A stretch of DNA of 64,000 nt, from contig NZ_CP059897.1 in assembly GCF_014126615.1 (NCBI RefSeq), positions 1,178,001 through 1,242,000 on the forward strand, given 5' to 3'. Positions 329 to 27,165 of this stretch are shown here, piece by piece (position 1 is the stretch's first letter; each line of letters opens with the position of its first letter). The stretch is from Ciceribacter thiooxidans. GTDB taxonomy: Bacteria > Pseudomonadota > Alphaproteobacteria > Rhizobiales > Rhizobiaceae. The notes under the pieces are model-generated. The model searched no databases. It saw only the letters and a list, made by a program, of their open reading frames with translations, and was not told where the DNA came from. The translations under genes and the position numbers were made by a program.

Positions 329-3300
329 TCACGCCACCGGGATCGCGATGCCCAATTCGGCAAGGACGACGTCGATCTGACGGATCGAGGCAGGAGCGGC
401 GTCGCCGTTCCGGATCTGGTCCGCGAGGCTCGGAATGTAGACCTGACCGCCGATATAGCGCTCATTCAGACGTTGCGCGTCGGTATAGCGTTCGTCCGAA
501 CCGGCACTCGCCGGCAGCCGGGTGAGATCGCCGCCGATCTCGTCGAGCGTGTGATGCAGATTGTCGCGCAGCTTCTCCAGCCCTTCCTTCGGAATGCCGT
601 TCAGCCAGTCGATGAACTGCTGGCGGGCGGCCGGCTGGTCGAGCCGGTAACCCCTGAGTTCGGCATATCTGGCGAGGATCGGCACGGGGCTGTATCCGTC
701 GCCGCTCTGGTCGACGAGAACGCCGGCCGCCGTCTCGCTCAGGCCTGAATGGGCAAGGAAGCGCCTGGAGGTCTCCGTCATGTACCGGTTCGATTCGCGA
801 GTGTCGGCGACTATCATCTGGCCGATCACCGCGGCGCCGACGATGACGAGGCCCGCCGGGCCGAACATCGTGCCGGTGCCGAGGGCAGCCATGATCGTTC
901 CGCCCGCCGCCGCAGCCGAGAGGCTTCCCATCAGCGGGTCGCCGCCCTTGAAATAGTCGAAGGCGATCCAGGCGTCGAAGCCGCCGCTCAGCGCCCCGAG
1001 GAACTTGACCGCCGGCCGGCTGCTGCTGCCGAAGTGCTTGACGGCGGTTGAGTCGGAGCGAAGCAGGTCCATTCCGCCGAGGAGCTCCGTTGTCCGCTGG
1101 CCGAGCCCCACTGCATCGATCACCACTTTGAGATTGCTTCTGAGGCTCGGGCTGTTCTGCGCTGCGTTCGCGGAGTTGGCCACACTCGCTCCCGTCGCGG
1201 CAAGGCCGATCAGCCGGAGCATCTGGCCGGGACCGGTCGTGTTCGCGAAGGAGCGGACGCCGCTCGAGCTCTTCAGCCCGTTCAGATCGCCGTCGAGGGC
1301 TGCCATCTTCGCCCGGGCCTGCTCGATCGTCTCTCCGGGCTCCGGCAGGGACTTGTCGACCGCGTCTATCGCCCGGTTCAGGTCGGCTTCGGGAATGCCG
1401 AGCATTCGTGAAAGGCCGCCGTCTTTCAGCCCTTGCAGGCTGGCCTTTGCCTTGCCGAGGGCGGCCGGATCCCCGGTTTGCAGATCGGTGAAGGACGGAA
1501 GCACCCGGTGGCGGATGATCTGCGTCGTTGCCTCTTCGGCGAGCTTCCGGCCGCGGTCGGTGAGGCGGGCCTGATAACCCATGAGCCTGACCACAGCCGG
1601 ACTGTCGAGCAGAGCCGGGTTCTTCTTCATCGCGATCTCGACCGCCATTGCGGTCTTTTCATCCGAGAGGATCTTGCCGATTTCGTCGTCGACGGCCTGT
1701 CGTTGAGACGCCAGCTCCGGCGGCAGGTTACCGAGTGATGTCAGCTGCCGCAGCAGTTTTTCGCCGCTTGCGGCAATATTGCCTTCGAGGCGCTGCTCCG
1801 TTGCAGTCCATTCCGGACCCTTCTCCTTCTTGTAATCGTCAATCGCTTTCGTGAGCTGGTCCGGGCTCATGGTGCCGCCGTGGTTCGAAATCAGCCACTG
1901 CAGTTCCTGCATATGCTCCGAATAGGCGATCACGTCCTGGTTGACCTCGGCGGACGCATACTGCTTGACCTGCGGAACGATGTTCCGGACGACGAAATCG
2001 GAAGAGGCCGGGGCACTTTCGACGGCCACGGCGATCGGATAGTCGAGACGGGAGCCATTGGCGATCGCCATCGGTATCGAGTTCGGGCCGTAGCCACCGA
2101 GTCTGGCGAAGCGCTCGGTGATCGCATCGGCACCCGGACTGCCGCTTATGCGGTCGATAATCCTCATCATATCTGTCTGGCCGTTCATTCCGATCAGGTC
2201 GCCACCGATCTTCTCCTGCTTCCGGCTGTTTGCCGCCTCGATCACCGGCATGGCGGAAGAGAGGAGCTTAGTGGCGAGCCGCGGATCGGCACCGTCCGTC
2301 AGCTGCTCGAGATTGCGCATTGTCGTTGCGGCATCGCCCTGTTCGCTGAATGCGTGCTCCGGCCGATAGTCGGCAAGGGGTTTGGATGCCCGGTTCGCTG
2401 CCTTGAAGATGAGAGCCTGCGCGTCCGCGGAATGCAGAAGAACGTGCTGGATCTCTGGCGCAGCCGAAGCAAAGGCCGAGGAGAGCTTGCGGAAAGCCTC
2501 TTCCGGGCTCCGCGAGGCATTTGCGCCGTCAATGATCGTGCGCGCCTTCGCCTCGACGTCGACGCCCGCATGGGTCGACGGACGCAGTTCGGTATTCAGC
2601 GCTTTCGCCGCATCTTCGATCGCCATCCGAGCGGGCGCCGCATCCGTCCAATCGCGGTCGTAAAGGCGCTGCAGCACCGCGGATCGCTGCCTTTCCGGCA
2701 GTGCCTCGACATGGGCCCGGACATCGGCGGAAATTCCGGCGGTCGACGCTCGATGGTCGATCTTCGGGTCGTCGGAATACTGGATACGGTTGCCGCGATC
2801 ATAAATCTCGTCGGCGAGGACGGCTTCGCCGTCGGTCTTCAGGCCGCGCTGCAGGATTGCCGCCTTGACGGCGCTTCCGGCGGGGCCGGCATCGAGCCAG
2901 CCCTTGTTCATCAGCCGGAGGGCTGCAGCCTGTCGTTCGGCGGGCAGCAGGCTGTCGAGATAGGTACCGACGTCACGCTGCAGGTCCCTGCCTTCGGCGG
3001 CATAGTCGATGCCGGAGGGGTTGGCGGCATAGGCGAGTTTGTTGCCGCGGTCATAGAGATCGTCGAGGAACGCCGCTTCACCCGTCGGCACTCCCCCGCC
3101 GTCGACGGGACCGTTGGCGACGAGCGCGGGGGAGGCGAGGGGCACGATCACGACGTCGTTCGGCAGGACGGTTCCGTCGGCGGGCAGCGCTATGCGGTTC
3201 GATGCGGCAAGATCATCGAGGCTGACATGGTTCTCCCTGGCAATCTCCCAGAGGCTGTCGCCTCTCTCGACGACGAAGGCTTTTTCCGTCATCGGGTCGA

Positions 3301-10975: not shown

Positions 10976-11629
10976 CTACTGCTCTCCTGCTGCTGTTTGG
11001 TTTGTCCGGGCGTTGGCGGTCGTCGTCGCCGCCTTGTCGGTCAGGTCGTCGGCGACCTCCTCGTGTTGGCCGCCACGGAAAATGCGCACGCGCGGGTCGT
11101 CCATCCGAGCACTCGGGGACGGCTGGACAGAGGCGGCCACCTGCTTGACCATGGCAATGAAAGGGGGAGGGCCGGATACCCGAAGCACCGGCGCGTTCGC
11201 CGTGGCGCGCACGGAAAAGCGGTCGTCCATGAGGTCGAGCCGGTGGATCTCGGCGATCACGGCGTCGCCGTTCGCCCTGCCGATGTTGATGATCTGCGTC
11301 GAGACTTCATCATTCGTGTTTACGTGGAGGACCGAGCCGTCGAAATACCAGACGAGACCGTTCGCCCGTGTCAGCTTGTCGAGAAACCCGCCCGCTGTGT
11401 CGGCGCGGACGTCGCCGCGCACCTGGCCGCGAATCTTGTCCGACAGAAGCACCGGAACGGAGAGGTTCCGGCCGAACTCCTGCAGCGCGTCGCGAACGTC
11501 CTGGTCGATCAGGACATAGCTGTACCGGCTGTCGAACCAGCCCGGGACTCCGGCGTTGGCCGGGCACGTCGCCGCAAACAGTGTGATGGCAAACATGCAG
11601 AACCTCCCGCTGAGCATGACGGTCTTCAT
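10976..11629 (-). CDS. sctC1: N-terminal half of a split type III secretin (RhcC1-like)
   Basis: A 217-residue exported protein carrying only the N-terminal (N0/N1) part of a secretin. A signal peptide ends near PANA. The N0-like block SYVLIDQDVRDALQEFGRNLSVPVLLSDKI ... NGLVWYFDGSVLHVNTNDE matches the start of SctC/HrcC proteins. No secretin channel domain follows; the channel half is encoded 5 kb away on the other strand. Splitting of sctC into C1 and C2 is a known trait of rhizobial systems. I chose 11629 because GGAG lies 9 bases upstream; 11665 is also possible. Confidence 0.9.
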   Translation of the reverse strand: MKTVMLSGRFCMFAITLFAATCPANAGVPGWFDSRYSYVLIDQDVRDALQEFGRNLSVPVLLSDKIRGQVRGDVRADTAGGFLDKLTRANGLVWYFDGSVLHVNTNDEVSTQIINIGRANGDAVIAEIHRLDLMDDRFSVRATANAPVLRVSGPPPFIAMVKQVAASVQPSPSARMDDPRVRIFRGGQHEEVADDLTDKAATTTANARTNQTAAGEQ

Positions 11630-12000
11630 GTCAAGCGCTCCGATTGTTCGCATCAAGCCGACCAAAGCTATAACACTGGATCGAGAGGTGCAACTCGAGG
11701 TTCAGTAAAAATGCAGGGGACCGTTACACGCGGGGCGCGCAAGGATCGAAAACCCTTTCAATACAAGGTGGTCATCGCGGTCAAAGACTGCCCCGCACCC
11801 TTGCCAAAACGCAATTTAAATCGGTTTATGTCACGCATAATTTCATTGTGCAACATTATGTGATGAGTATGCAAATTGTCATTCGCCAGGTTCGACTTTA
11901 ACCATTAATACACCCTGGAATGGGTGTTCGTTTAGATAGGGACTGCATGCCGGCGCCTGGCATTGCCTGGAACCGGCCTCAACTTGTCAAGGAGAAGAGA
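11630..12000. promoter_or_regulatory. Divergent promoter region of the two secretion operons
   Basis: This 371-base, AT-richer gap separates sctC1 from the needle candidate and must hold both operon promoters. A loose -35/-10 pair for the rightward operon is TTGTCA at 11876 and TAACCA at 11899, 17 bases apart. I looked for a tts box (the TtsI site of symbiotic type III systems) and saw none. No gene is evident inside. Confidence 0.45.
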
Positions 12001-12284: not shown

Positions 12285-13187
12285 ATGGCATCCAGTCTGA
12301 TCCTCAGGAATTCAGCCCCATCCCTGACGCTCGATGTGCTGAAGGGCGTCCACAGCGGCGTCTCTCTGCCCCTGGAGCGGGGCACCTATCTGGTCGGCTC
12401 CGCAACCGATTGCGATCTGACGCTCAGCGACCGCGACGTGTCGGCGAATCACATGCGCCTGCAGTTCGCCGGAAACGAGGTGATGATCGAGGCAATCGGT
12501 GCCGATCTCATGGTGGATGACACCAACGTGCCCGTCGGGCACGGTCTTCAGGTGCCACTCCCCGTATCCGTTTCGCTCGGCAGTGCACACCTCAATCTCT
12601 CTCGGCCTGTGCGGGAACCGGTCGCACGAGCGGCAGGGTCTTCGTACGGCTGGATGCTGGGGAGCGTCGCAGCCTTTTCGATTCTCACCATAGCCGCCGT
12701 GCAGGCGGGTGTCGCCAAACTCGATCACGAGCCGGCGATCGCCCGGTTGAGCGAGAACGCGGTGACGACAGGGGCGATCGCGTCGCAGGCGCCTTCGTCG
12801 CAGGAGGTCTCGGCGGCGCTCGCTGCTAAACTGCGCGAGGCCGGCTTGCCGGATCTGAAGATCGAGGCCGACGGCACACGGCTGTCGGTATCCGGCGCCA
12901 TCGGCGACGACGCGCGCAAGAACTGGGGCGAGGTCCAGACATGGTTCGATCGCTCCTACGGCACCAGCTTCGTCCTCACCAGCCTGGTCGGCGAGGCGGC
13001 GCCGCAGAGCGCCCCGAAGTTTCACCTGCAGGCGATCTGGTTCGGGGAGACCCCGTATGCGATCGGCGCTGACGGCGCGCGCCTCTACAAGGGCGCAGCG
13101 CTGGAAGACGGTTGGTACATCAAGGATATCCGGGACGGCAGCCTGACGGCGGCCCGACAAGGTGAAGAATTCGTCCTGCGCTTCTAG
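12285..13187 (+). CDS. sctD: Type III inner-membrane ring protein SctD
   Basis: A 300-residue SctD/YscD-type protein. Residues 8-105 form a cytoplasmic FHA-like domain (TYLVGSATDCDLTLSDRDVSANHMRLQF). One transmembrane helix lies near 123-145 (YGWMLGSVAAFSILTIAAVQAGV). The rest is periplasmic with ring-building/BON-like folds (VSAALAAKLREAGLPDLKIEADGTRLSVSG). It forms the outer inner-membrane ring around SctJ and binds SctK on the cytoplasmic side. The start at 12285 has GAGGTGA 7 bases upstream. Confidence 0.93.
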   Translation: MASSLILRNSAPSLTLDVLKGVHSGVSLPLERGTYLVGSATDCDLTLSDRDVSANHMRLQFAGNEVMIEAIGADLMVDDTNVPVGHGLQVPLPVSVSLGSAHLNLSRPVREPVARAAGSSYGWMLGSVAAFSILTIAAVQAGVAKLDHEPAIARLSENAVTTGAIASQAPSSQEVSAALAAKLREAGLPDLKIEADGTRLSVSGAIGDDARKNWGEVQTWFDRSYGTSFVLTSLVGEAAPQSAPKFHLQAIWFGETPYAIGADGARLYKGAALEDGWYIKDIRDGSLTAARQGEEFVLRF

Positions 13188-13586: not shown

Positions 13587-13918
13587 CGCAACGCCGCGCG
13601 GACAGCCTCGAATTCCTCCATGCACTCGGTTCGCTCTACTGTCGGGCCGGGCACCACAAGCGCGGACTGGTGTTTCTTCTGCTGGCCGCGAGAATGGCGC
13701 CGGACGACGTCGCCGTGCTGCACTCGCTGGCGCAGGCGTTCGTCGCGACCGGCGCCGTGCCGCGTGCGCTCGCAGCCATCGAACGAATCGAAGACATCTC
13801 CGATGACATCGACCCCGCCATTCTGCGGCTGAAGAGCCATGCGCGATGGGAGCGCGGCGAGAAGGACGAGGCCCGAGACGCCTTTGAGGCCTATCTTCAG
13901 GCGAGGGCGGCAGAATGA
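13583..13918 (+). CDS. TPR protein, SctG/YscG-like chaperone, probable TTG start
   Basis: A 111-residue all-helical protein with about three tetratricopeptide units (LGSLYCRAGHHKRGLVFLLLAARMAPDDVAVLHSLAQAFVATGAVPRAL). The only start consistent with the operon is TTG at 13583, inside TTGA overlapping the previous stop. Translational coupling therefore seems likely. Its end overlaps sctV by 4 bases. In other systems small TPR proteins here hold the needle subunit in the cytoplasm, which would fit this operon; the match is by fold and position only. Confidence 0.75.
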   Translation: MTQRRADSLEFLHALGSLYCRAGHHKRGLVFLLLAARMAPDDVAVLHSLAQAFVATGAVPRALAAIERIEDISDDIDPAILRLKSHARWERGEKDEARDAFEAYLQARAAE

Positions 13919-16068
13919 GCGCGCTTGCAACAGTCAACCAGTTCGCCCGGGCGGCATCACGACGGTCCGACATCGTTGTCGCGGCGGTGGTGATGCTGGC
14001 GATCACCATGATGATCGTCCCGATGCCGACGATGCTCGTCGACGTGCTGATTGGCTTCAACTTCTTCTACAGCCTGCTTATCCTCGTCGGCGCCCTCTAT
14101 ATATCGACCCCAGCACAATTCTCTTCCCTGCCTTCTATCATCCTGCTCGGAACGCTCTTCCGGCTCGCTCTCGCGATCACCACGACACGGCTGATCCTGA
14201 CCCAGGCGGATGCCGGGCAGATCGTCGAGGCCTTCGGATCCTTCGTCGTCGGCGGTGACGTGCTCGTCGGGCTCATCGTCTTCCTGATCATCACGATCGC
14301 GCAGTTCGTCGTCATCACCAAGGGCGCGGAACGCGTCGCCGAGGTGGGTGCACGCTTCGCGCTCGATGCGATGCCGGGCAAGCAGATGAGCATCGACAAC
14401 GAGGCGCGCAGTGGAGACATCGACCAGCAGGAGGCACGCCGCAGACGTGACGACCTCGAGCGGGAGAGCCAGTTCTACGGCGCGATGGACGGCGCGATGA
14501 AATTCGTCAAGGGCGACGCCGTGGCGGGATTGATCATCATCGCGATCAACCTCACCGGCGGGCTGACGATTGGCTCCTTCCAGCGCGGCCTGACGGTCGG
14601 TGAGGCGGCACACACCTATTCGCTTCTGACGGTCGGCGACGGCCTCATCTCCCAGATCCCGGCACTGATGATGGCCGTGGCGGCGGGGGCCGTCGTCACG
14701 CGGGTACCGTCAGCCCAGCACCCGCAGGACCTCGGGTCCGAGATTCTCGGGCAACTCGCCGCGAGCGACCGCGCACTGGCACTGGCCGCGGCGATCCTCT
14801 TCGGCTTCGGACTCGTCCCCGGCTTTCCACTTGCCGTCTTCTGGGCATTGGCGGGCCTGGCCGGCCTGCTCGCCTATGTGGCGCGCAGACGCCAGCACGG
14901 CTCCGCAGAGCCTGCGGACCTCGATCCGCCGCGACGGGAGGTGACGCGCACCGTTTCCTCCGGCGGACGTGTCGTCGATCATATAGCGGGAACCCTGCCG
15001 GGCGGCGGACAAGCGGCGGGAGCGGCGCAAAGGCTGATCCTCACGATGGGCGAGGGGCTCGCCGAACGCCTTCCGCAACTGTTGTTCGCCGAAAGGACGG
15101 CGGGGCTTGCGGCAACCATTCTGGAGGATCTCGGCATCGTGGTCCCGGCGGTCGGGCGGCAGCTGGATCCGCGCCTTGCATCGTCGGAGTTTCGCATCGA
15201 TTTCGAGGCTGTTCCCGTGGTCGACGGTGTTCTCCTGCTTGATCACCTGATGGTCTGGGAGGAGGCTGCCGACCTCGACATCATGTCCATCCCCTACGTG
15301 ACCCAGTCCGACCTGATGGGGCTGAAGCTCGTCTGGGTCGACCGGTCCCATGCGGCAGCACTCGATGCCGCCGGTGTCGGATACTGCGAACCCGAGGACG
15401 TGGTGATGACGCTGATCGAACGCGTCCTGCGCCGCTATGCGCCCGATTTCATCGATGCGCAGGAGGTGCGTGCGCTTCTCGCCCGGCTGGAGGAGCCCTT
15501 CGGCGATCTGATCAGGGAAGTCCGCGAGGTGGTGTCCGTGCAGAAGCTTGCCGAGCTGCTGCGCAGACTCGTCGAGGAAGACGTTCCGATCACCAACATG
15601 CGCATCATTCTCCAGACGGTTGCCGAGAGGGGGTCGCAGATCCAGAACCTGCAGGCGTTGGCCGACCATGTGCGGGCGAGCCTCGGCCGTCAGATATGCT
15701 TCCGGCTCGCCGACCGCAACCGGATCGTTTCCTCCTATCTTCTGACACGGCCTTTCGAGGACGAACTGAGAGCTGCGGTCGAAGGAAACGGCGGCCCGGC
15801 CGCTACCGTCCCGGACCGGTTGGCGGCGCAGATCGTGGCGGAGCTGAAGGCGAGGCGGGAACAGACACCGGGACGGCTTCCACAGCCAACGATTCTTGCT
15901 TCCATGGATGTCCGCCGGCACATCCGAAATCTCCTGATGCGCCACGACCTCCAGATCCCAGTGCTGTCGTACCAGGAGATCGCCGCAGAGTTCAGCGTCC
16001 AGTGCCTCGGCTACATCGCGCTTCCGGTGTCTGGAACGCAGGAACTCGGAAGCGAAGAGCGCGCATGA
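13915..16068 (+). CDS. sctV: Type III export gate protein SctV
   Basis: A 717-residue SctV/FlhA-family protein. The N-terminal half has about eight transmembrane helices and the family block FALDAMPGKQMSIDNEARSG followed by RRDDLERESQFYGAMDGAMKFVKGDA. The C-terminal half is the cytoplasmic nonameric ring that receives chaperone-substrate complexes (from about residue 350). Length is normal. It overlaps the TPR gene by 4 bases (ATGA). Confidence 0.98.
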   Translation: MSALATVNQFARAASRRSDIVVAAVVMLAITMMIVPMPTMLVDVLIGFNFFYSLLILVGALYISTPAQFSSLPSIILLGTLFRLALAITTTRLILTQADAGQIVEAFGSFVVGGDVLVGLIVFLIITIAQFVVITKGAERVAEVGARFALDAMPGKQMSIDNEARSGDIDQQEARRRRDDLERESQFYGAMDGAMKFVKGDAVAGLIIIAINLTGGLTIGSFQRGLTVGEAAHTYSLLTVGDGLISQIPALMMAVAAGAVVTRVPSAQHPQDLGSEILGQLAASDRALALAAAILFGFGLVPGFPLAVFWALAGLAGLLAYVARRRQHGSAEPADLDPPRREVTRTVSSGGRVVDHIAGTLPGGGQAAGAAQRLILTMGEGLAERLPQLLFAERTAGLAATILEDLGIVVPAVGRQLDPRLASSEFRIDFEAVPVVDGVLLLDHLMVWEEAADLDIMSIPYVTQSDLMGLKLVWVDRSHAAALDAAGVGYCEPEDVVMTLIERVLRRYAPDFIDAQEVRALLARLEEPFGDLIREVREVVSVQKLAELLRRLVEEDVPITNMRIILQTVAERGSQIQNLQALADHVRASLGRQICFRLADRNRIVSSYLLTRPFEDELRAAVEGNGGPAATVPDRLAAQIVAELKARREQTPGRLPQPTILASMDVRRHIRNLLMRHDLQIPVLSYQEIAAEFSVQCLGYIALPVSGTQELGSEERA

Positions 16069-16149: not shown

Positions 16150-17492
16150 ATGCGAGTTTTGCGAAGCCTTCGCTTCTTGGCGACGAGGGGACTCTTTCGA
16201 TTTGTCTTTCTGACCGCGTTCGCGGTCCATTGGGCGGTGTCTTCGGCCAGCGCCCAGGTGAAGGTGGACGCCATCAACGGTCAGGTCCTGGACCTCAACG
16301 TCGGCGAGGGCACGATCCTTCGTTTTGACGAACCGGTCGAGTCGGTGTTTCTCGCCGACACCGCGATTGCCGACGTGCGCGTCGTCTCGCCCGGCGTGGT
16401 CTATATCTATGCGACCAAGACAGGCGACACCAATCTGATCGCTCTCAGTGCCGACCAGACGACGCGCGGAACCGTCCAGGTTCATGTTTCCGGCAATCCG
16501 AGACCTGCGCAAGAGTCGGCGCTTGCGCTGCAGCCGAACACCCGCGTCGATATCAGCCTGTTCGGCGGACAGGTTGTCGGAACCGGACCGACGCGGAATG
16601 TCGGCGAGGCAATGGACATGGAAAGCGTCCTGCAGAGCTATTCGACGCCAGAGAAGCCCGCACTCAACAACACGACGTTCGCCGGCTCCAACCAGGTCAA
16701 CATTCGTGTCCGGTTCGCCGAAGTCGCCCGCAACGAACTGACCCGCTTCGGCATTGACTGGAGCCTCTTCGTCAACAGCGGCTCTTTCTCCTTCGGCCTC
16801 GTTCGCACCGGTGGTGCCAGCAACGAAGACGATAGCGGGATCGCGATCGGTGCCCGCGGCGACCACGTCAACGTCAACGTCCTGCTCGATGCCCTGCAGG
16901 CAAATGGCATCCTGACGATCCTCGCCGAGCCCAACATCACCGCCGTCACCGGCCAGACCGCCAGTTTCCTCGCAGGGGGGAGATACCCGTGCCGGTGCCG
17001 ACGGACAATGGCCAGGTCGGCATCGAATACAAGCAGTTCGGCGTCTCGCTGCAATTCACGCCGACGCTGCTGCCGAACAACCGCATCGCCTTGCAGGTGC
17101 GGCCCGAGGTCAGCAGCGTTTCGCAGGACAGTGTCGTCTCGATCGGCGGGCTGGTCGTGCCGTCGCTGCGTATACGCCGTGCGGACACGACAGTCGAAGT
17201 CGGCAGCGGCCAGACCTTTGCGATCGCCGGATTGTTCCAGCGGCAGGAGTCCCAGACGCTGAACAAGACGCCCGTCATCGGCGACGTGCCGATCCTCGGC
17301 GAATTGTTCAAGTCCAAGCGCTTCCAGCGCAACGAGACCGAGCTCGTCATCTTGATAACGCCCTATCTGGTGACGCCAACCTCGGAGCGGAACATGAAGA
17401 CGCCACTGGACAGCCCGGCCGGTGCGATTTCCTCGCCGCGCAAGAAGGCAAGACCCGCGGCCAACAAGGGATATGGCTTCTATGTCGAATGA
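16150..17492 (+). CDS. sctC2: Tad/Cpa-type secretin acting as SctC2, interrupted by one frameshift
   Basis: The channel half of the outer-membrane secretin. A signal peptide ends near SASA. Residues about 35-105 match the pilus-secretin N-terminal domain seen in CpaC/RcpA (VLDLNVGEGTILRF ... IADVRVVSPGVVYIYATKTG). The secretin core follows (NQVNIRVRFAEVARNEL, ILTILAEPNITAVTGQTASFLAGG). At a run of six G (16975-16980) the frame changes. Reading one base back gives GEIPVPV and then a normal core end (VGSGQTFAIAGLF, PVIGDVPILGELF, ETELVILITPYLV). One extra G restores about 447 residues. Sequencing error, true mutation and slippage are all possible; the G-run pattern elsewhere favours error. Confidence 0.88.
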
Positions 17493-17922
17493 TCGCCTTC
17501 CGGGAGCCGTAATCCCCGCAGCAGCACTGCTCGCCTGCCTCGTCGCCCTGGCGGGCTGCAACGGTTCCCAACCGCAGCCCTATTCACCGAACTACAGATA
17601 CCTTTCGACCTCCGGTGCCCTACCGGCGAAGGGAAAGGTCGTTCGCAAGGGCTACGATCCAACCACAAGCCAGGTGCTGGTACCCGACGCCTGCATCACG
17701 CCGGACACGGCCGATCAGCCGCTCTATCTCCCGCCCGGCTGCGCGAACAATCTGAACTTGCAGTTCATGGCGGCAGACCAGCGACAGCTGCTTGAAGGGC
17801 GCGAGATGGGGCCTGCGATGGCGGCCCCGGTCGCACGCGCGGCAAAGGACTATATCGAGGGAACCGGCGACCAGGTGATCCCGCCGGGCACCGCAACGAA
17901 CGAGACGGGGATCGCACAATGA
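17473..17922 (+). CDS. CpaD-like lipoprotein of the secretin module
   Basis: A 149-residue lipoprotein. The signal (VIPAAALLACLVALAGC) has a clear lipobox. The C-terminal stretch PGCANNLNLQFMAADQRQLLEGREMGPAM resembles the conserved end of CpaD (Tad pilus biogenesis lipoprotein). The start overlaps the end of sctC2; ATGs at 17473 and 17482 are both possible. In Tad pili CpaD helps the CpaC secretin in the outer membrane, so a pilotin-like role for the adjacent secretin is a reasonable inference. Confidence 0.8.
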   Translation: MASMSNDRLPGAVIPAAALLACLVALAGCNGSQPQPYSPNYRYLSTSGALPAKGKVVRKGYDPTTSQVLVPDACITPDTADQPLYLPPGCANNLNLQFMAADQRQLLEGREMGPAMAAPVARAAKDYIEGTGDQVIPPGTATNETGIAQ

Positions 17923-18767
17923 CGGAGGCAAATTCGTCTTCCGGCCACGGCCGGCATCCTGTCAGCCAGGGAGCCGCTGTGCTTGTTGCACTTCTGACCC
18001 TTTCCGCCTGTACGACGATCCCCACCGAAAACGAGAAGGGCAAACAGGCGAACGCCCAAACGAAGCTTCTGAGCGTCGCCGAGAGCATCGAGGCGAAGGG
18101 CGAAAGTGGGACGGCGTTGGCGCTCTATGAGCGCGCCGCCGCCAATGCCCCGCATGATGTATCGATGCGCGTTCGCCTCGGCAATGCGCGGCTCAAGGCC
18201 GGCGACGCCGAGGCGGCGGAGGAGGCCTTCCGGGCCGCACTCGAGATCGAACCCGGAAATGCCACCGCCTTGCTCGGACTGGGCACTGCTCAGTTGCAGA
18301 AGGGCGAGGCGGAATCGGCCGCGCGAAGCCTCGCACCGGCCGCAGAAGCACTGAATTCGGTCGTCGCCTACAACCGTCTGGGAACGGCGCTCGTCTTCAG
18401 CGGCAATGGACAGGCGGCGGAGGGCGCCTTTTCGAAAGCCCTGTCGCTGCAACCCAACAATCTCGACACGGCGACAAACCTCGCGCTTGCGGAAGCACTG
18501 TCGAACAACATGACCCAAGCGGTCACGCATATGACGGGCGTTGTCAGTTCACCCCTCGCCGAAAGACGGCATTTCATCAACTACCTGATCGTTTTGACGA
18601 TGGCCGGCGAGGGCGGCAAGGCTCGTTCGGTCGCCGTGCCGGACATGTCGGCGAAGCAGAAAAACCAGATTCTTGCAAAAGCGGCGAAGCTGCGTTCCAT
18701 TCCTGACGCCGGCAGACGCGCCCAGGCGATCGGCCTGCTGTCATCCTCGGGTGATGGTGTCACATGA
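17919..18767 (+). CDS. TadD-like TPR lipoprotein
   Basis: A 282-residue protein with a lipoprotein signal (AVLVALLTLSAC) and about five tetratricopeptide repeats between residues 55 and 190 (ALALYERAAANAPHDVSMRVRLGNARLKAGDAEAAEEAFRAAL...). The layout matches TadD, the TPR lipoprotein of Tad pili. It overlaps both neighbours by 4 bases. TPR genes beside rhcC2 occur in some rhizobial systems; it probably supports secretin assembly at the outer membrane. Confidence 0.85.
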   Translation: MTEANSSSGHGRHPVSQGAAVLVALLTLSACTTIPTENEKGKQANAQTKLLSVAESIEAKGESGTALALYERAAANAPHDVSMRVRLGNARLKAGDAEAAEEAFRAALEIEPGNATALLGLGTAQLQKGEAESAARSLAPAAEALNSVVAYNRLGTALVFSGNGQAAEGAFSKALSLQPNNLDTATNLALAEALSNNMTQAVTHMTGVVSSPLAERRHFINYLIVLTMAGEGGKARSVAVPDMSAKQKNQILAKAAKLRSIPDAGRRAQAIGLLSSSGDGVT

Positions 18768-19801
18768 ACGAAACGAGCGAAGAGAAAACGCTTCCCGCTT
18801 CGGAAAAGAAGATCCGGGACGCGCGCAAGAAGGGCCAGGTGCTGCACAGTCCCGACATGGTTTCGGGCATCGTGGTCCTGTTTTCCACTCTCTTCCTCTT
18901 CTACATCGCACCCGACCTGCAAGTAAAAACCGACAGGCTTCTCGACGAGGCGGCTCAAATCTACACGCGACCGTTCGCCGACCTCTGGTACCGCCTGAGC
19001 ACGATTGCCGCCGATGCGCTTCTGACGACGGTATTGCCCATCCTCTGCATCACGATCGCCGCCATCCTTGCAACCAATGTCGCCATAACCAGGGGCTTCG
19101 TCTTTTCCGTCAAGCCGCTAGAGCCGGACTTTGCCCGCATCAATCCCGCATCGGGGCTGAAGCGGATTTTCTCACTGAAGAGTGTCGTCGACTTCGGGAA
19201 GGCTTTGTTCAAGGTTGCTGCTCTCTCCGTGACGTTCGCCCTGGTCTTCCATACGGGACTGAGAGCGCTGTTCCAGGCGCCGGCTTGCGGATTTGCCTGC
19301 CTGCACGAAACCTCGCTCTCCATCCTGAAGACCATCGCGTCGATCGCACTCGCAGCCTTCATCGTGATGGGCGTCGTCGACGTCTTCCTCCAGCGCTGGC
19401 TGTTCCTGCGCGAAATGCGCATGACGCGCTCGGAGAGCAAGCGCGAGCACAAGGACACGGAAGGCGATCCGCTGATCCGCCAGGAGCGCCGCAAGCTGGC
19501 GCGGCTCTTCGGAACCACGAAGACCGGCCTCTCAAGCGCCGTGCTGCTGATCGGCGAGGAGGGGTCAGGATCCGTCGGCATCCGCTATGTCCGTGGCGAA
19601 ACGCCCGTACCCATCGTCGTTTGCCGCGCGACCGGCCCGGCAGCCGGCTCGATGAACGCGCAGGCCCGAAGTCGGGGTATTCCCATCGTGACAGAACCCG
19701 ACCTCGCCAAAGCACTCGCCCGGACACCGGTGGGAACGCCGGTTCCCGATCGACTGTTCCAGGACGTGGCGAACGCCCTTGTCGCAAATGGTCTGATTTG
19801 A
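18764..19801 (+). CDS. sctU: Type III substrate-specificity switch SctU lacking the NPTH motif
   Basis: A 345-residue SctU/FlhB family protein. The N-terminus has the family sequence EKKIRDARKKGQVLHSPDM, then four membrane segments to about residue 210, a basic linker (RSESKREHKDTEGDP) and the cytoplasmic domain (GIRYVRGETPVPIV ... GIPIVTEPDLAKALARTPVGTPVPDRLFQDVANALV). The self-cleavage site NPTH, expected at residues 265-268, reads EEGS. The rest of the domain is intact, so the protein is probably functional but cannot cleave at the usual Asn-Pro bond. It overlaps the TPR gene by 4 bases. Confidence 0.95.
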   Translation: MNETSEEKTLPASEKKIRDARKKGQVLHSPDMVSGIVVLFSTLFLFYIAPDLQVKTDRLLDEAAQIYTRPFADLWYRLSTIAADALLTTVLPILCITIAAILATNVAITRGFVFSVKPLEPDFARINPASGLKRIFSLKSVVDFGKALFKVAALSVTFALVFHTGLRALFQAPACGFACLHETSLSILKTIASIALAAFIVMGVVDVFLQRWLFLREMRMTRSESKREHKDTEGDPLIRQERRKLARLFGTTKTGLSSAVLLIGEEGSGSVGIRYVRGETPVPIVVCRATGPAAGSMNAQARSRGIPIVTEPDLAKALARTPVGTPVPDRLFQDVANALVANGLI

Positions 19802-19828: not shown

Positions 19829-20493
19829 ATGCCAGAATTGCCGCTGCGGAAACAATGGTCTGGGTTGGTGCTCGTTACCCTGCTTCTTGCATCACCGATG
19901 ACGCAGGCGAGGGCGGAGGAACCGTTTCCGCCGATCCTCGACGAGGCGACCGGCCAGATCTGGATCGATAGTGGCTATATCGAGTTCCTGATGTCGCCGC
20001 CCGCATACCCGCCACCGCAAGCTCCGGGAGTGCTGGTCGTCCCGGATGCGGGGCATACCTGCCGCGGCAACTGGTGGAATACAGCACGCAGGAGGCGCCC
20101 GGAACGATCGTCATCGATCCGAACCGGTATGCCCTTTACTACGTCATGCCCGGCGGCCAGGCGCTCCGCTACAGCGTCGGCGTCGGTCGCGAAGGCTATG
20201 GCTGGCACGGAACAGAAGCGGTGAGCGGCAAGCGCGCCTGGCCCGAATGGCGTCCTCCGGCCGACATGCGCGCAAGGCGACCCGACCTCCCGGCCCACAT
20301 GGCCGGCGGCCCCGACAATCCGCTTGGCGCGCGCGCCATCTACCTCGGCAACACGCTCTATCGGATCCACGGTTCGAACGAGCCGGAGAGCGTCGGTCGC
20401 TCTTCGTCATCGGGATGCTTTCGCATGACCAACGACGACGTCATCGACCTCTACGAGCGGGTGAGGGTCGGCGCCAAGGTGATCGTGCTTTAG
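19829..20493 (+). CDS. L,D-transpeptidase, interrupted by one frameshift
   Basis: An exported YkuD-family enzyme. The signal peptide (WSGLVLVTLLLASPMTQARA) is encoded in the first frame. The catalytic domain is in another frame: APGTIVIDPNRYALYYV, later HGSNEPESVGRSSSSGCFRM, the active-site His and Cys motif. The frames meet at a G run (20050-20053); one extra G gives VVPDAGAYLPRQLVEYSTQEAPG and a continuous protein of about 221 residues. The family cross-links or remodels peptidoglycan or attaches proteins to it. It begins 27 bases after sctU on the same strand, so it may open or anchor the wall around the secretion machine; that role is inference. Confidence 0.85.
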
Positions 20494-21032: not shown

Positions 21033-22651
21033 GGCGGCAGGGTTGAAATGTCCGCCGGTTTGCAAAGTAGAAATGTCCGACTGGTCGCCGCACGGCACAT
21101 CGACCAGCCCCGATCTGAGCGGCTGAACCCGCTTGCAAGATCAGATCGGGGCGGGTGGTAAACACACCTCTTCGGCTTTAGCTTTGAGGCTATTCGAACG
21201 ATCATTTCGCCGCAGGTCTCGACAGCGCTTTCTCTCGCCGGGCAATCACCGCCGGATCGTTCATGTAATCTGTGCGGCGACCAGGTTTGCGACCTCTCGG
21301 CTTATAGCCGTTCTTGTCACTGTTGGTTTTGACGACCGGTTTGTCCTGCTGCTCCTGGCGCTCCTTGATGTAGGCTAGGAGTTCACCGAGCCGCTTGTTC
21401 TCAGTGATTGCCGCATGCGTCACCCGCTGGTCCTTGTCGAACACCCGGTAGGGCAGGGAATGCCCCTTCCAGCGCACATCCAGCCGACCATCGGCATAAG
21501 CGTAGGTCTCGACATAGCGGCCGACCAGTCCGCGCGTCACCTCGGTCTCTTCCAGCATGATCCGCTGACGCTCGTAGGAGAACGTCAGTTGCGCGCCGAC
21601 ATACCGCTGCTCACGTTTGCACAGGACGTCGCGCAGCCGATCCGGGGCAAGATTCAGCGACCGATGCAGATCATCAGGTCGGACAGGGGTAATGGCAAAC
21701 TGCCGGTTATAGCGCTCCATGAACCGAGGCAGGAAAGCGTTGCCGTCGTCCATCCCACAGATGCCCTCCAGGCGCAGATCCTTAATCAACCGATCCTGTA
21801 GCGTTCGGTTCATCCGCTCGACTCGGCCCTTCGCCTGGCTCGAATTTGCGCAAAGAATCTCGATGTTTAGCTCTGAGAGCGCACGCCCGAACTGGGTCAT
21901 GCCCTGGCCGCCCTTGGCGTCCTTCTTCGCCACTCGGAACACCGAATGCTTGTCGGAATAGAAGGCGACCGGCGCACCATGCGCCTTCAGATAGAGCTCC
22001 AGCGCCTCGAAATACGTAAACGCACTTTCCGACCGTACGAAGCGCAACTGCATCAGCTTGCCGGTCGCATCGTCGATGAACACCAGCAGCGAACAGGAAT
22101 CACCGCGATCCTCGAACCAACGATGCTCGGATCCATCGATCTGCACCAGCTCGCCGTAGGCTTCTCGGCGCAGCCGCGGCTGATGAAACGTGCGGCGCTG
22201 CTTGCGCGACAGCCACAGGCCGGCCTCCGACATCCATTTGCGCAAGGTCTCGCGCGACACCGTCAGGCCGTCGCGCTCGGCGAGCTTCTCGGCGGCCAGC
22301 GTCGGGCCGAAATCGGCATAGCGCTCGCGCACGATCGCCATGGCATAGTCGCGCACGCCGTCGCAAATCCGATTGTTCGACCGCCGCCCGATCGCTCTGT
22401 GCCGGATCGATGCCGCACCATCCGTCCGGATCCGCTCCAAGAGCCGACGAACCTGGCGCGTGCTTAAGCCCAGGACATGCGCCGCTGACACCATCGCCAT
22501 GCGGCCGTCGATCACCTTCGACAAAACCTCAATCCGCTGCAGGTCACGCTCGCTCATCGCAATCAGTCCCATCCGCAATCTCCCAGGTCCGTTCAGAGCC
22601 GAGGAGTGTGACATTCCAACTTTGCAGAAACAGGACACTTTAACTTTGCGT
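21033..22651 (-). mobile_element. ISNCY/IS1202-like insertion sequence with duplicated motifs at both ends
   Basis: About 1.6 kb. Each end carries two copies of a related motif in inverted orientation. On the left these are GTTGAAATGTCC (21042) and GCAAAGTAGAAATGTCC (21062). On the right, read on the other strand, they are CGCAAAGTTAAAGTGTCC (22633-22650) and GCAAAGTTGGAATGTC (22610-22625). Spacing is similar at both ends, so these are probable transposase binding sites. Exact termini and target duplication are not certain. Confidence 0.75.
21202..22572 (-). CDS. ISNCY-family DDE transposase
   Basis: A 456-residue transposase. The helix-turn-helix region is near the start (SAAHVLGLSTRQVRRLLERI). 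The DDE core includes GELVQIDGSEHRWFEDRG, then FYSDKHSVFR and SSQAKGRVERMNRTLQDRL, with plausible catalytic D, D and E. I use 22572 as the start; 22557 (MSERDL) is also possible. The frame is intact, so the element could be active. Confidence 0.9.
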   Translation of the reverse strand: MGLIAMSERDLQRIEVLSKVIDGRMAMVSAAHVLGLSTRQVRRLLERIRTDGAASIRHRAIGRRSNNRICDGVRDYAMAIVRERYADFGPTLAAEKLAERDGLTVSRETLRKWMSEAGLWLSRKQRRTFHQPRLRREAYGELVQIDGSEHRWFEDRGDSCSLLVFIDDATGKLMQLRFVRSESAFTYFEALELYLKAHGAPVAFYSDKHSVFRVAKKDAKGGQGMTQFGRALSELNIEILCANSSQAKGRVERMNRTLQDRLIKDLRLEGICGMDDGNAFLPRFMERYNRQFAITPVRPDDLHRSLNLAPDRLRDVLCKREQRYVGAQLTFSYERQRIMLEETEVTRGLVGRYVETYAYADGRLDVRWKGHSLPYRVFDKDQRVTHAAITENKRLGELLAYIKERQEQQDKPVVKTNSDKNGYKPRGRKPGRRTDYMNDPAVIARREKALSRPAAK

Positions 22652-23760
22652 GCTGGTTCCAGATTGAATGCAACGCTGGCTGGAAATCTACACGCGTCAT
22701 CGTTCGAGAGCCAACAGGTGGCGACTAAACATCTCCTTGGGTGTCTGAAACCCCAGGCACTTGCGCGGCGTTTCGTTGAGCCGATCACACAGGGCACGGA
22801 TTTCCTGGTGTGTGACATCCAGCACGATGGTCTCGGATGGGAGATATCGCCGGACGCGCTTGTTGGTGTTCTCAACCGTGCCTTTCTGCCATGGCGCCTG
22901 CGGGTCACAGAACCAGGCCACTGTTCCCATGCCTTTTTCCAGTTCTCGCCATGAGACGAACTCCAAGCCTCGATCGAATGTGAGGCTCTGACGAGCCGAC
23001 GCGGGCAGGGGTGCCAGATGACGGATCAACTGGCTCATGATCGGCTTTGATCGTCGGTCGTTGTTGCGGAACAGGACAGTGTAGCGGCTCTTTCGCTCGA
23101 CGACGGTCGCGATGTTGGCAGATCCATGTTCTTTCCTGAAGATCATCAGATCTGCCTCCCAGTGACCGAATTCGCTTCGCGAATTGATGGCTTCCGGCCG
23201 ATTGCGAATGGCGCACTCCATTGGAAAGACAAGGCTTCTGGGTTTGCGTGCGTATCGTGGTCGCCGTTTGCGTCGCCGCTCCGGCAAATAGCGGGCCAGT
23301 TGTTGATCCTGGCCTTCCTGCGAGTAGATATATTGGTAGATCGTCTCATGGCTCAGCCCGGCAGACGAACCACTGGCAAGCTTCAGGCGTCCGGAAATCT
23401 GCTCAGGTGACCAGCCATTCTTCAGCCTGTCGACAACGGCAGCGCACAGGGCAGGATCACGCAGGAGCTTGCGATATTTGCGCCGTCGGTCCGACGCCAT
23501 AGCGTGTGCTGTGACGTGCCAATATCCGTCGGCGACGCGAGCTTCACGGTCATGCCAGAAATTGCGCCGCAGTTCCCGGCAGATCGTCGACCGATCTCGC
23601 CGCAGAGTGCGGGCGATCTGCGCCTGGCTGATCTTCTTCTCATGCATCCGCGCAATCACGCGACGTTCGTCCAAACTCAACTGAACAAAAGAGCGGCCCA
23701 TCCTATCCTCCTGAGATCATGGCCATTATTCTCTTCGTTGCATTTGAAATTGGAATCTGC
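22652..23760 (-). mobile_element. IS30-family insertion sequence abutting the previous element
   Basis: Imperfect inverted repeats flank the gene. The left one (22655-22675) is GGTTCCAGATTGAATGCAACG. The right one (23736-23757) reads GATTCCAATTTCAAATGCAACG on the other strand; 17 or so positions agree, allowing one gap. The element starts a few bases from the outer end of the ISNCY element, suggesting insertion next to or into its terminus. Confidence 0.82.
22697..23701 (-). CDS. IS30-family transposase
   Basis: A 334-residue, complete IS30-type transposase. The N-terminal helix-turn-helix is FVQLSLDERRVIARMHEKK ... ISQAQIARTLRRDRSTICREL. The DDE domain is intact: GHWEADLM, then SLTFDRGLEFVSW, then KGTVENTNKRVRRYLP. 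Length is normal for the family, and nothing suggests decay. Confidence 0.96.
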   Translation of the reverse strand: MGRSFVQLSLDERRVIARMHEKKISQAQIARTLRRDRSTICRELRRNFWHDREARVADGYWHVTAHAMASDRRRKYRKLLRDPALCAAVVDRLKNGWSPEQISGRLKLASGSSAGLSHETIYQYIYSQEGQDQQLARYLPERRRKRRPRYARKPRSLVFPMECAIRNRPEAINSRSEFGHWEADLMIFRKEHGSANIATVVERKSRYTVLFRNNDRRSKPIMSQLIRHLAPLPASARQSLTFDRGLEFVSWRELEKGMGTVAWFCDPQAPWQKGTVENTNKRVRRYLPSETIVLDVTHQEIRALCDRLNETPRKCLGFQTPKEMFSRHLLALER

Positions 23761-24250: not shown

Positions 24251-24793
24251 CGGACGTTCGGCCTCGCCTCTCGAGTATAGAAGGTCGCGTCCAAACCACG
24301 TCATCCCAGACGCGCTCCTGATGTGACAGGGATCTTGTACTTGTTCGCTCGAACGGGTCAGCAGAGTAATTTCTCCGTCTAAGACGACTCGAGCATCCTG
24401 CGGAGAACAACGCTTTCAATCCACCGGACGCACAACACCTCTATCGAGACGCATCACTCTATGTCGCTACGATTATTGACAGAGAACAATTTTAACCGAA
24501 CCTTAAATAAGCATAGTTACGGTACCGTACATACGAAGGAGAGATTCTGAATCCTCTCACTCGACTCGGAGGAGTGCACGTTACTGCGACACAGCCGGGC
24601 CGCACAGTCCATATCGATAAACCCGATAGACAAGTAGGTCCTTGGCGACAACTTCCAGCATAGGCATCATCAGCGCATTCATATCATCCGCAGCAATAAC
24701 ATGACGCTCACGGACTCTATGGATTATGGAAATGGACCCAGTTTCCACTGTCACCCTATTTGGATGTTGATTTATATCATTGGAGGGAACCCC
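24251..24793. other. AT-richer gap upstream of the chemoreceptor
   Basis: No convincing gene. A GGAGGG ribosome-binding site before the receptor start lies at 24782. A minus-strand open frame crosses this region and the receptor start, but I do not accept it as a gene. The receptor promoter should lie here; no confident -35/-10 pair was seen. Confidence 0.5.
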
Positions 24794-27165
24794 ATGAATT
24801 CTGAAACGTTTTTCAGCGAAAGAACGCATGATATCCATCGAGCCGAGCGACCGACACGCGCCGGGTTTGGCATCCGAGATATTCTTCTATTGATATTGTC
24901 GGCATTCGTTTTCGCGTTGCTGTTCATCGCATCCAGCAACATCTACGCCGCCTGGGAAGACATGACCGCAGCCAAGGCCATGCACGCGAACGCCGAGGTA
25001 GGAGAGCTCTTCTTGACCAGCGCCGGCGCGCTGGCGACTGAAAGAGGTTTCACCAATACGGTCTTGGCCCAAAATTCGATCGCCACTCAAAACTCTATTA
25101 GCCGAATTCAAGAACTGCGTCGCAAGGGCGATGAAGCGCTCTCCTCCGCATTGGCCGAAGTCCGGAAGGGCCCAGATTTCAAAGGTAAAGGGCGGCTACT
25201 GGCGAGGGTTCGGCAGGACTTTGAGGCGTTGGTTGCCCTACGCAGCGAAGTGGAAGCGCAATGGAGCAGGATAGCCTCCGAGCGCGATGCAGCCGTCGCA
25301 AGACGTTGGGTGCCATCAGTGACCGCGTTGATTATGTCGTCGCAGGAACTCCGAATTGCCGCGCAGGTCGTTCCATCGACGGCGCTGGCACGAACCCAGA
25401 TTATGCTCGACCTACGCCAAGCCATGTGGGTGATTGCCGAATATGCGGGGCGCGAACGCGCCGTGATTGGCGGCAAGATCGCGGCGGGCAAACCGCTCGA
25501 CGGCGATACACTAGCAATCTTGGCCGGATACCGGGGTCGTCTGGAACAGTCTTGGGCCACGATCGAAGCATATGAAAAGCGCGACTTCGCGAGCGCCAAT
25601 GTGCTTTCGGCGATCGCGACGGCACGTTCGGAGTTCTTCGTGACATTCGAGAAACTTCGAAAGGAGGTCTATGCTGCTAATGCCGATCGTAGAAAATACC
25701 CAGTCAGCGGTGATGAATGGATCACCGCCGCAACGAAGGCGATCGACAGCCTCCTTAACCTCTCAGAAGATATCGGCGCGGCTGCCGGAACCTATGCCGA
25801 CCTCATCGAAACCGACAGTCTGCAAACGTTAGTTTCTAGCATCGCTATTCTGCTTGTCGCCCTCGCCTTCGGTGGCCTCGCATTATGGACGATCGTTGTC
25901 CGTATCACGCGACCGGTCCATCTCCTGACAGGCACGATGTCGCGGCTTGCCAACGGAGAACTAGAGCTCACCGTACCCTTTGTCAGCCGACGAGATGAGA
26001 TTGGCCAGATGGCGCAAGCAGTCGAGGTGTTTCGTCAAGCGGGCGCCGCAAACCGCCGATTGGAGGCTGAGGCCGAAGAAAACCGTTCGCAGTCTGAGCG
26101 AGAACGGGCCCACCGGGACGCTCAGAAGGCGGCGGAATCGGAGAGCCTACAATTCGCTATCTCCGCCCTTGGTGCTGCACTTGCGCACCTGGCCAACGGC
26201 AATATGGAACACCGTATACACTCAGCATTCGCCGGTTCGCTCGATACATTACGCGTCGACTTCAACCAGTCAGCAGAGACGCTTGAAAGCGCATTGCGCG
26301 AGGTTGGTGGAAATGCCGCAGCTATCCATACATCCACCGAGCAGCTCCGTTCGGCAACGTCCGACCTCGCGAGACGCACTGAAGCCCAAGCCGCTTCGGT
26401 CGAACAGACTGCTGCTGCGATCGAGGAAATCACTACGGCCGTTAAAGACGCGAGTCGCCGCGCTGGTGAAGCCGGAAACCTCGTGGCGAGGACACGTGAC
26501 CAGGCCGAGACTTCTGGTTCGATTGTAGAACAGGCTGTGCGCGCCATGGGGAAATAGAGACTTCATCAGACGCAATAGGCACCATCATCACGGTGATTGA
26601 TAACATAGCGTTCCAGACAAATCTGTTGGCCCTCAATGCGGGCGTAGAGGCTGCACGGGCCGGAGACGCAGGCAAAGGTTTTGCTGTCGTCGCTCAGGAG
26701 GTTCGCGAGCTTGCCCAACGTTCTGCAGACGCAGCACAGGAGATTAAGGTGTTGATCGCTGCGTCGACCGATCAGGTTAAGCAGGGTGTGCTGCTCGTGG
26801 GCGAGACCGGGAACGCCCTGCGATCGATTGTCGCGGAGGTACAGGAGATTAATCGACATGTTGTCGGAATCGTTGACGCAGCGAGAGAACAGTCAATCGG
26901 ACTGTCAGAAATCAACACCGCAGTCAATCAGATGGACCAAAGTGCGCAGCAGAATGCTGCGATGGTTGAACAGTCCTCAACCGCCTGTTCCGGTCTCGCA
27001 ATGCAAGCCGCAGCGCTCACCAACCTGTTGTCCAGGTTTCGCTTCGGGGCGCAACAGTCTGATGCAGGCCACGCGCTCCATCAAGAGAGCACCCCTGTCC
27101 AACAGGTGATTGCGGTTGGGCCAAGAGACATTTACGTGTCGAGAGGCACAAGAGCGACATCATAG
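24794..27165 (+). CDS. Methyl-accepting chemotaxis protein with two HAMP regions, one frameshift
   Basis: A membrane chemoreceptor. Transmembrane helices lie near residues 28-48 and 345-369, framing a helical periplasmic sensor domain of about 295 residues. A HAMP domain follows TM2 ([27 protein letters not shown]), a second HAMP-like segment follows near 460-510 ([11 protein letters not shown]), then the methylation and signalling helices. The frame breaks at a run of four G (26548-26551). Adding one G turns MGK-stop into [14 protein letters not shown] and joins the conserved hairpin ([29 protein letters not shown]). Repaired length is about 791 residues. No C-terminal CheR-binding pentapeptide is visible. 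ATG 24794 has GGAGGG upstream. Confidence 0.88.

Follow-up and report, generated by a model that had tools for sequence, protein, structure and literature searches.

We analysed a 64,000-nucleotide stretch of the Ciceribacter thiooxidans genome (hereafter the window; C2:1178001-1242000, from a genome of 5.04 Mb in two contigs) that carries a type III secretion system (T3SS). Three adjacent genes at 16150-18767, lying on the same strand between sctV and sctU, encode a secretin, a lipoprotein and a lipoprotein with tetratricopeptide repeats (TPRs), as the original prediction for this DNA had stated. Our comparisons make it probable that this T3SS, a member of the subgroup-II rhizobial (Rhc-II) systems, uses the CpaC-CpaD-TadD set of a tight adherence (Tad) pilus as its outer-membrane unit, kept as a neighboring trio, with export and inner-ring parts that are type III. 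The hybrid is real, and its main line is already known: the descent of the secretin RhcC2 from Tad (Abby and Rocha, 2012; PMC3459982) and a TadD-like pilotin (Mercante, 2015; PMC4311626) have been published (these and the other papers cited here, except the 2015 commentary, are cited from excerpts). The prediction of a hybrid machine therefore holds as a Tad set within a T3SS, and not as a novelty in itself. New here are the contiguous trio in Rhc-II, a common secretin tip, and a short CpaD that lacks the OmpA-like peptidoglycan domain. The parts of the trio are as follows.

16150..16977 (+): RhcC2, piece 1, with signal peptide, pilus-type N-terminal domain and the start of the secretin domain (PF13629, E 7.1e-17)
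16989..17492 (+): RhcC2, piece 2, in another frame, with the remaining secretin domain and tail (PF00263, E 2.5e-36; 89% to S. meliloti C2)
17469..17489 (+): C-terminal tip of RhcC2, GYGFYVE, the predicted dock for the TPR lipoprotein (from the tip counts below)
17482..17922 (+): short CpaD-type lipoprotein, lipobox Cys 26 (PF09476, E 9.8e-5; hhalign, E 3.6e-13; profile of 18 CpaDs, E 6.2e-10)
17919..18767 (+): TadD-type TPR lipoprotein, lipobox Cys 31, putative pilotin (TPR families; best own-genome paralog is the Tad-locus TadD)

Lipoboxes (LAGC and LSAC) are present in the two lipoprotein sequences. The genes had been described as joined by 4-base overlaps, which is so for lipoprotein and TPR gene (17919-17922) and for TPR gene and sctU (18764-18767), both ATGA, but not for secretin and lipoprotein gene, which overlap by 11 bases (17482-17492) given an ATG start at 17482. 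For comparison we assembled 34 Rhc-II-type loci, consisting of the window, 8 of 13 plasmid loci fetched by hand (SctV matches, 472 records), and 25 genome loci with sctV among the best 80 of 579 secretin matches; one of them, L016, was counted as Rhc-II-type from where it falls in that group's neighborhood of the secretin tree, on a long branch.

RhcC2 combines the pilus-type N-terminal domain that had been predicted for it with a Secretin domain. In a quickly built tree (86 rows by 290 columns: 27 RhcC2, two of them the window pieces, 33 Tad CpaC, 10 SctC, 8 PilQ and 8 GspD; 27 of the 53 Tad-classed loci of the secretin search and 24 of the 30 loci of another set are absent), RhcC2 and Tad CpaC fell together opposite SctC, PilQ and GspD (Shimodaira-Hasegawa-like approximate likelihood ratio test, SH-aLRT, 99), and both window pieces clustered with the S. 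fredii and S. meliloti Rhc-II secretins (97). By its domains and its grouping with CpaC, the window secretin is of the Tad type (CpaC/RcpA). A firm place of the secretin within the type III SctC2 proteins, joined with a lipoprotein lacking CpaD similarity, had been named in advance as evidence against the predicted hybrid. Half of this holds, in that the secretin does lie firmly inside RhcC2; RhcC2 itself groups with Tad, however, and the neighboring lipoprotein shows CpaD similarity. Besides this gene, PF00263 detected only one secretin gene in the genome, cpaC, which belongs to a Tad locus of the second contig. This locus contains cpaC, cpaD and tadD-like genes, and its CpaC-CpaD order matches that of the window.

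The predicted CpaD likeness of the lipoprotein was recovered by profiles in both directions. Its match to Pilus_CpaD (PF09476) lies under the gathering score and covers only profile positions 156-198 of 200. With hhalign, an alignment of the lipoprotein and 50 relatives matched an alignment of 21 CpaDs (two from Rhc-I, the subgroup-I rhizobial systems) at a probability of 97.9% over 54 C-terminal columns. A profile of 18 Tad-locus CpaDs matched the lipoprotein in 31 of the 34 Rhc-II-type loci (E 1.9e-14 to 7.8e-4), with no match in L016, L066 or L068, and matched all four Rhc-I loci. We dropped a count of 34/34 obtained with 19 'Tad' CpaDs, since these included locus L076 (described below), without which the count is 31/34. 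The converse profile, built from the 34 T3SS lipoproteins, gave 110 matches among 11,104 open reading frames (ORFs), 107 of them immediately after a secretin ORF and the other three in over-long frames spanning such a place; it matched 73 of 83 Tad-set loci and 2 of 4 Rhc-I loci. This 34-locus profile was used in place of alignment A4, in which 38 of 49 rows are database proteins without neighbor context. The lipoprotein, which is 92% to a C. azotifigens protein, has in common with CpaD the lipid Cys, a further Cys pair, GC(A)xxxNL and DL. With its lipobox, its Cys pair, a GC(A)xxxNL...DL C-terminal part and a gene right after the secretin gene, it is by sequence a CpaD-type protein.

The N-terminal OmpA-like peptidoglycan-binding domain of CpaD is missing from the lipoprotein. 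Its lipid Cys and GC Cys are separated by 47-68 residues in all 34 T3SS lipoproteins, compared to 124-164 residues in all 19 CpaDs, which had been preselected for a length of 150-330 amino acids. The corresponding stretch of the own-genome CpaD (AlphaFold mean predicted local distance difference test score, pLDDT, 74) resembles OmpA-type peptidoglycan-binding domains (best OprF, E 1.7e-6), and the Rhc-I lipoproteins retain this stretch (two rows have 123 and 128 residues, and the proteins of L167, L168 and L183-L185 are longer). A lipobox regular expression did not work in 9 of 35 Rhc-II rows, and its output for one Rhc-I row made no sense. Short CpaD-like proteins without the OmpA-like part also occur in at least 11 Tad loci (L083, L086, L103, L106, L110, L113, L116, L119, L125, L127 and L129; the one in L110 has no clear lipobox). 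On this account we dropped the idea of a T3SS-specific truncation; the CpaD family at large does not need the OmpA-like domain. The comparison points to the C-terminal half of CpaD as what pilus and needle have in common.

The product of the third gene contains several TPRs by family profiles, and had been predicted to be TadD-like. When a 20-row profile of this protein was searched against its own genome (53 candidates scored, 9 matches), the window gene came first and the Tad-locus TadD next, at 68.6 bits over positions 5-245 of 264; the following match reached 45.9 bits over half the model, and lower ones were partial. Among the fetched ORFs, the profile gave 26 Tad-set matches and recovered the Y4yS-type proteins of other Rhc loci weakly (20-54 bits). 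The protein therefore seems closest to Tad-locus TPR proteins, and it may act as the pilotin for secretin assembly. The list of PDB matches was set aside as a test for TadD, since it could not separate TadD from other TPR proteins. Together, the two-way profiles, the secretin tree with its non-Tad outgroups and the rank of TadD bear out the complete three-part Tad outer-membrane set that was proposed for this T3SS operon.

Following the secretin domain, the tail of RhcC2 is variable except at its end. We defined the tip as G[FL] plus 2-4 residues at the C-terminus and found it in 34/34 Rhc-II-type secretins (30 with GF), 9/9 Rhc-I secretins (8 by the narrower class of the script; L185 ends DGFILE) and 49/54 Tad secretins (4 of the 5 misses end GYVY), against 0/26 SctC, PilQ and GspD ORFs, which were chosen by a script pattern. 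Among ORFs longer than 150 amino acids in the fetched loci, GF plus 2-4 residues ends 141 of 3,851, secretins included. In P. aeruginosa RcpA, of which only the last residues (L414, S415 and D416) were taken from the text of that study, the last four residues are required for TadD binding and secretin assembly (PMC10499894). By analogy, we predict that the RhcC2 tip is the dock for the TPR lipoprotein.

Across the 34 loci, which come from Rhizobiales, Rhodobacterales, Pseudomonadaceae, Halomonadaceae and a Klebsiella plasmid, the lipoprotein gene directly follows the secretin gene in every case (33 by script, L016 by annotation). A TPR gene is present in 33, on the same strand as the secretin in 7 and on the opposite strand in 26; in the remaining locus, L014, none was found in the 26 kb read. 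The stretches read gave no match to cpaB, cpaF or tadB at E 1e-5. The Paracoccus sanguinis plasmid T3SS of L016 (13956-15601) has a very divergent RhcC2 and lipoprotein.

The remaining T3SS genes of the window that bear on its classification are these.

10976..11665 (-): RhcC1, an N0-type remnant of a classical T3SS secretin and probably the bridge to the inner ring (PF21304 T3S N0, E 1.8e-7; TIGR02516 positions 2-152 of 463, E 2.9e-27)
12285..13187 (+): SctD, Y4yQ-type inner ring protein (PF23893 Y4YQ_C, PF16697, PF21934)
13915..16068 (+): SctV export gate (TIGR01399 above cut-off, E 4.7e-218)
18764..19801 (+): SctU export switch protein (PF01312, E 6.7e-76; its start overlaps the TPR stop)

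The split RhcC1/RhcC2, the position of rhcC2 after sctV and the clustering of the secretin with Rhc-II sequences identify the system, by sequence, as Rhc-II. Its gene order and parts are those of the S. fredii NGR234 T3SS-II on pNGR234b and of S. meliloti, its SctV is 83.5% identical to that of pNGR234b, and all 20 S. meliloti cluster genes that were compared have a match in the window; it is an Rhc-II member with no difference in kind. The Rhc-I systems (NGR234 pNGR234a, M. loti) are similar in having the RhcC1/RhcC2 split, a CpaD-type lipoprotein after rhcC2 (named CpaD family in RefSeq) and the TPR lipoprotein Y4yS. They differ in that Y4yS follows sctV, away from rhcC2, and is shorter (182 amino acids in NGR234), and in that their CpaD is full-length with the N-terminal domain. 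The Tad/Flp pilus unit has all three proteins, the cpaC-cpaD order and the secretin tip in common with the window. It differs in its inner-membrane parts, which were not found in the T3SS stretches, in having no RhcC1 alongside the secretin, and in its longer CpaDs, although the short form also occurs in the Tad loci listed above.

Several parts of this arrangement have been described before. RhcC1 has been proposed as a possible linker to SctD (PMC3459982). Y4yS is reported to be a TadD-like pilotin whose loss lowers RhcC2, and mlr8762, which adjoins M. loti rhcC2, to have CpaD homology (PMC4311626). A lipoprotein gene, y4xK, has been noted next to rhcC2 (Tampakaki, 2014; PMC3973906), and a TPR gene beside hrcIIC2 in the P. 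syringae T3SS-2, with Tad unmentioned in the excerpts of that paper (Gazi, 2012; PMC3574062). In Caulobacter, the Tad outer-membrane unit consists of CpaC-CpaD, with an OmpA-like fold in CpaD (PMC13170226, 2026). A 2015 commentary reports that Rhc-II clusters have no y4yS and asks for what reason and by what means a pilotin is used in such systems (Gazi, 2015; PMC4500985). Our data place a TadD-like gene next to the Rhc-II secretin, where the TPR gene was reported missing, and the tip predicts its binding place. In the open-access literature (subscription papers lay outside this scope), the excerpts do not describe the full trio for Rhc-II or the tip, nor do they give the two Rhc-II lipoproteins a CpaD or TadD identity.

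In the working that we propose, the TPR lipoprotein would travel to the outer membrane, and its groove would hold RhcC2 by the C-terminal GFYVE tip, as a result of which RhcC2 would assemble there. In the periplasm, the short CpaD would lie against the outer face of the barrel formed by the secretin, steadying it, and RhcC1, a leftover N0 domain, would connect RhcC2 to SctD/SctJ. P. aeruginosa RcpA-TadD likewise pairs a TPR pilotin with a secretin bearing a C-terminal tip, and there docking has been demonstrated (PMC10499894); for the window, docking, the belt position of CpaD and the bridging by RhcC1 are inferred from sequence. This suggests that a needle can adopt an entire outer-membrane unit of gate, pilotin and belt, beyond the gate alone.

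A number of observations weigh against this account. When the lipoprotein was combined with its relatives in a profile, the own-genome CpaD was missed at E 1 and only one of four Rhc-I loci was matched at E 1e-3. The AlphaFold model of the lipoprotein by itself was not confident (mean pLDDT 57) and not good enough to search for similar folds. Resemblance between TPR proteins is easily of a generic kind, and designed TPR proteins head the PDB list. The Klebsiella aerogenes plasmid locus L014 (14148-15774) retains the tip yet has no TPR match in 26 kb, and the secretin frame is broken in the present assembly, so that the window copy may be non-working. Moreover, Caulobacter can do without CpaO, its TadD ortholog, and it is CpaD that is needed as the partner (PMC13170226). 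This last point, together with the invariable place of the lipoprotein gene right after rhcC2 and a TPR gene that is on the opposite strand in 26 of 34 loci and was not found in one, would fit a CpaD-type lipoprotein that is the true pilotin or belt of the same borrowed set, with the TPR protein accessory or unneeded. We consider this unlikely given that the tip is nearly invariant and that loss of the TPR protein Y4yS in M. loti reduces RhcC2 in membranes (PMC4311626). The generic nature of TPRs, the Pfam CpaD match below its gathering score, the front part of the lipoprotein (PxPYSPNY), which has no counterpart in the CpaD alignment, and the own-genome CpaD missed by its profile could also mean that both proteins are home-grown T3SS parts that merely resemble Tad parts. 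That is very improbable in view of the two-way profile matches located behind secretin genes, the hhalign result, the Cys pair and GC(A)xxxNL...DL motif common with CpaD, the full-length CpaD-type lipoproteins of Rhc-I loci, and TadD as the best paralog of the TPR protein.

The secretin had been taken for a single gene frame, which the assembly does not support: the secretin frame is lost from ORF 16150-17262 at, or close to, six consecutive G (16975-16980), and the remainder is in the frame of 16989-17492. Runs of six G are common sites of sequencing error. In the comparison with the S. meliloti cluster, rhcC2 and an L,D-transpeptidase gene match in two frames and the other 18 of 20 genes in one. 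A methyl-accepting chemotaxis protein outside the cluster also appears, by eye, to be split over two frames (24701-26557 and 26593-27165, +), which would make three frame breaks in some 10 kb. It is possible, if somewhat doubtful, that the rhcC2 and L,D-transpeptidase breaks are real and that the system is decaying in this genome, leaving a T3SS without an outer-membrane gate. No run of at least five equal bases was found at the L,D-transpeptidase and chemoreceptor breaks, so simple homopolymer error does not explain these two. The secretin break, on the other hand, sits at the G run, both secretin pieces remain close to relatives (93% and 95% to locus L006; piece 1 is also 93% to a C. ferrooxidans protein), an intact relative of 447 amino acids (P0099) is 99% identical to piece 1, and the apparent break in the chemoreceptor (24701-27165), lying outside the cluster, would fit assembly errors. 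We lean towards an assembly error in the secretin. A conserved phase-variable G run is unlikely, as eight relatives carry only 2-3 G at that site. In Halomonas sp. PA16-9 (L011), rhcC2 likewise matches in two ORFs and is possibly a second frame-broken copy.

Rhc-I and Rhc-II secretins each formed one clade, apart among Tad secretins, in every tree built, and the two clades were joined in 0 of 200 bootstrap trees. With clean labels, a single origin of the two was not rejected by the approximately unbiased (AU) test (p 0.162, 0.363 and 0.365 in three trees). Two captures of the Tad outer-membrane set, one in Rhc-I with a full-length CpaD and one in Rhc-II with a short CpaD and an adjoining TadD, are thus suggested only tentatively and seem rather unlikely to us. 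Two apparent rejections of one RhcC2 origin were discarded. In the first (AU p 8e-5), six T3SS rows (L169-L174) had been mislabeled as Tad; the T3SS label was checked by sctV, sctU and sctN neighbors for L169-L172 and by tree place only for L173 and L174. In the second (AU p 0.0016), L076 had been labeled Tad though it is sister to Rhc-II. With the rows relabeled, and separately with L076 removed, one origin was no longer rejected. The mislabeled tree omitted L016, L128 and four near-identical Tad rows, and 6 of 16 loci of one set gave no ORF by pattern; the relabeled tree omitted L019 and L172-L174.

Two further loci are of note. L076, a 4.7-kb Kiloniellales contig, carries a secretin gene, a full-length CpaD gene and an opposite-strand TPR gene, arranged as in Rhc-II. 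Its secretin and the Rhc-II rows are sisters (100/100); the contig showed no sct or cpa marker, and L076 could be a missing link. The T3SS locus L184 (G190) has C1, C2, a full-length CpaD-type lipoprotein, a 270-amino-acid TPR protein and sctV side by side; it is intermediate between the Rhc-I and Rhc-II layouts, and its secretin is placed basal in Rhc-I.

Around the cluster, two transposase-like ORFs, assigned by eye, lie just downstream (21202-23701, -). A stretch at 369-1724 (-) is 31% similar to a LysM-domain protein adjoining sctT in a Phyllobacterium cluster, and the S. meliloti cluster also has a LysM gene at the corresponding place. The L,D-transpeptidase gene (19829-20493, +) directly follows sctU, and such a gene is present in 11 of 33 Rhc-II-type loci checked. 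As a pure guess, this enzyme could act on peptidoglycan at the secretin, replacing the absent CpaD domain.
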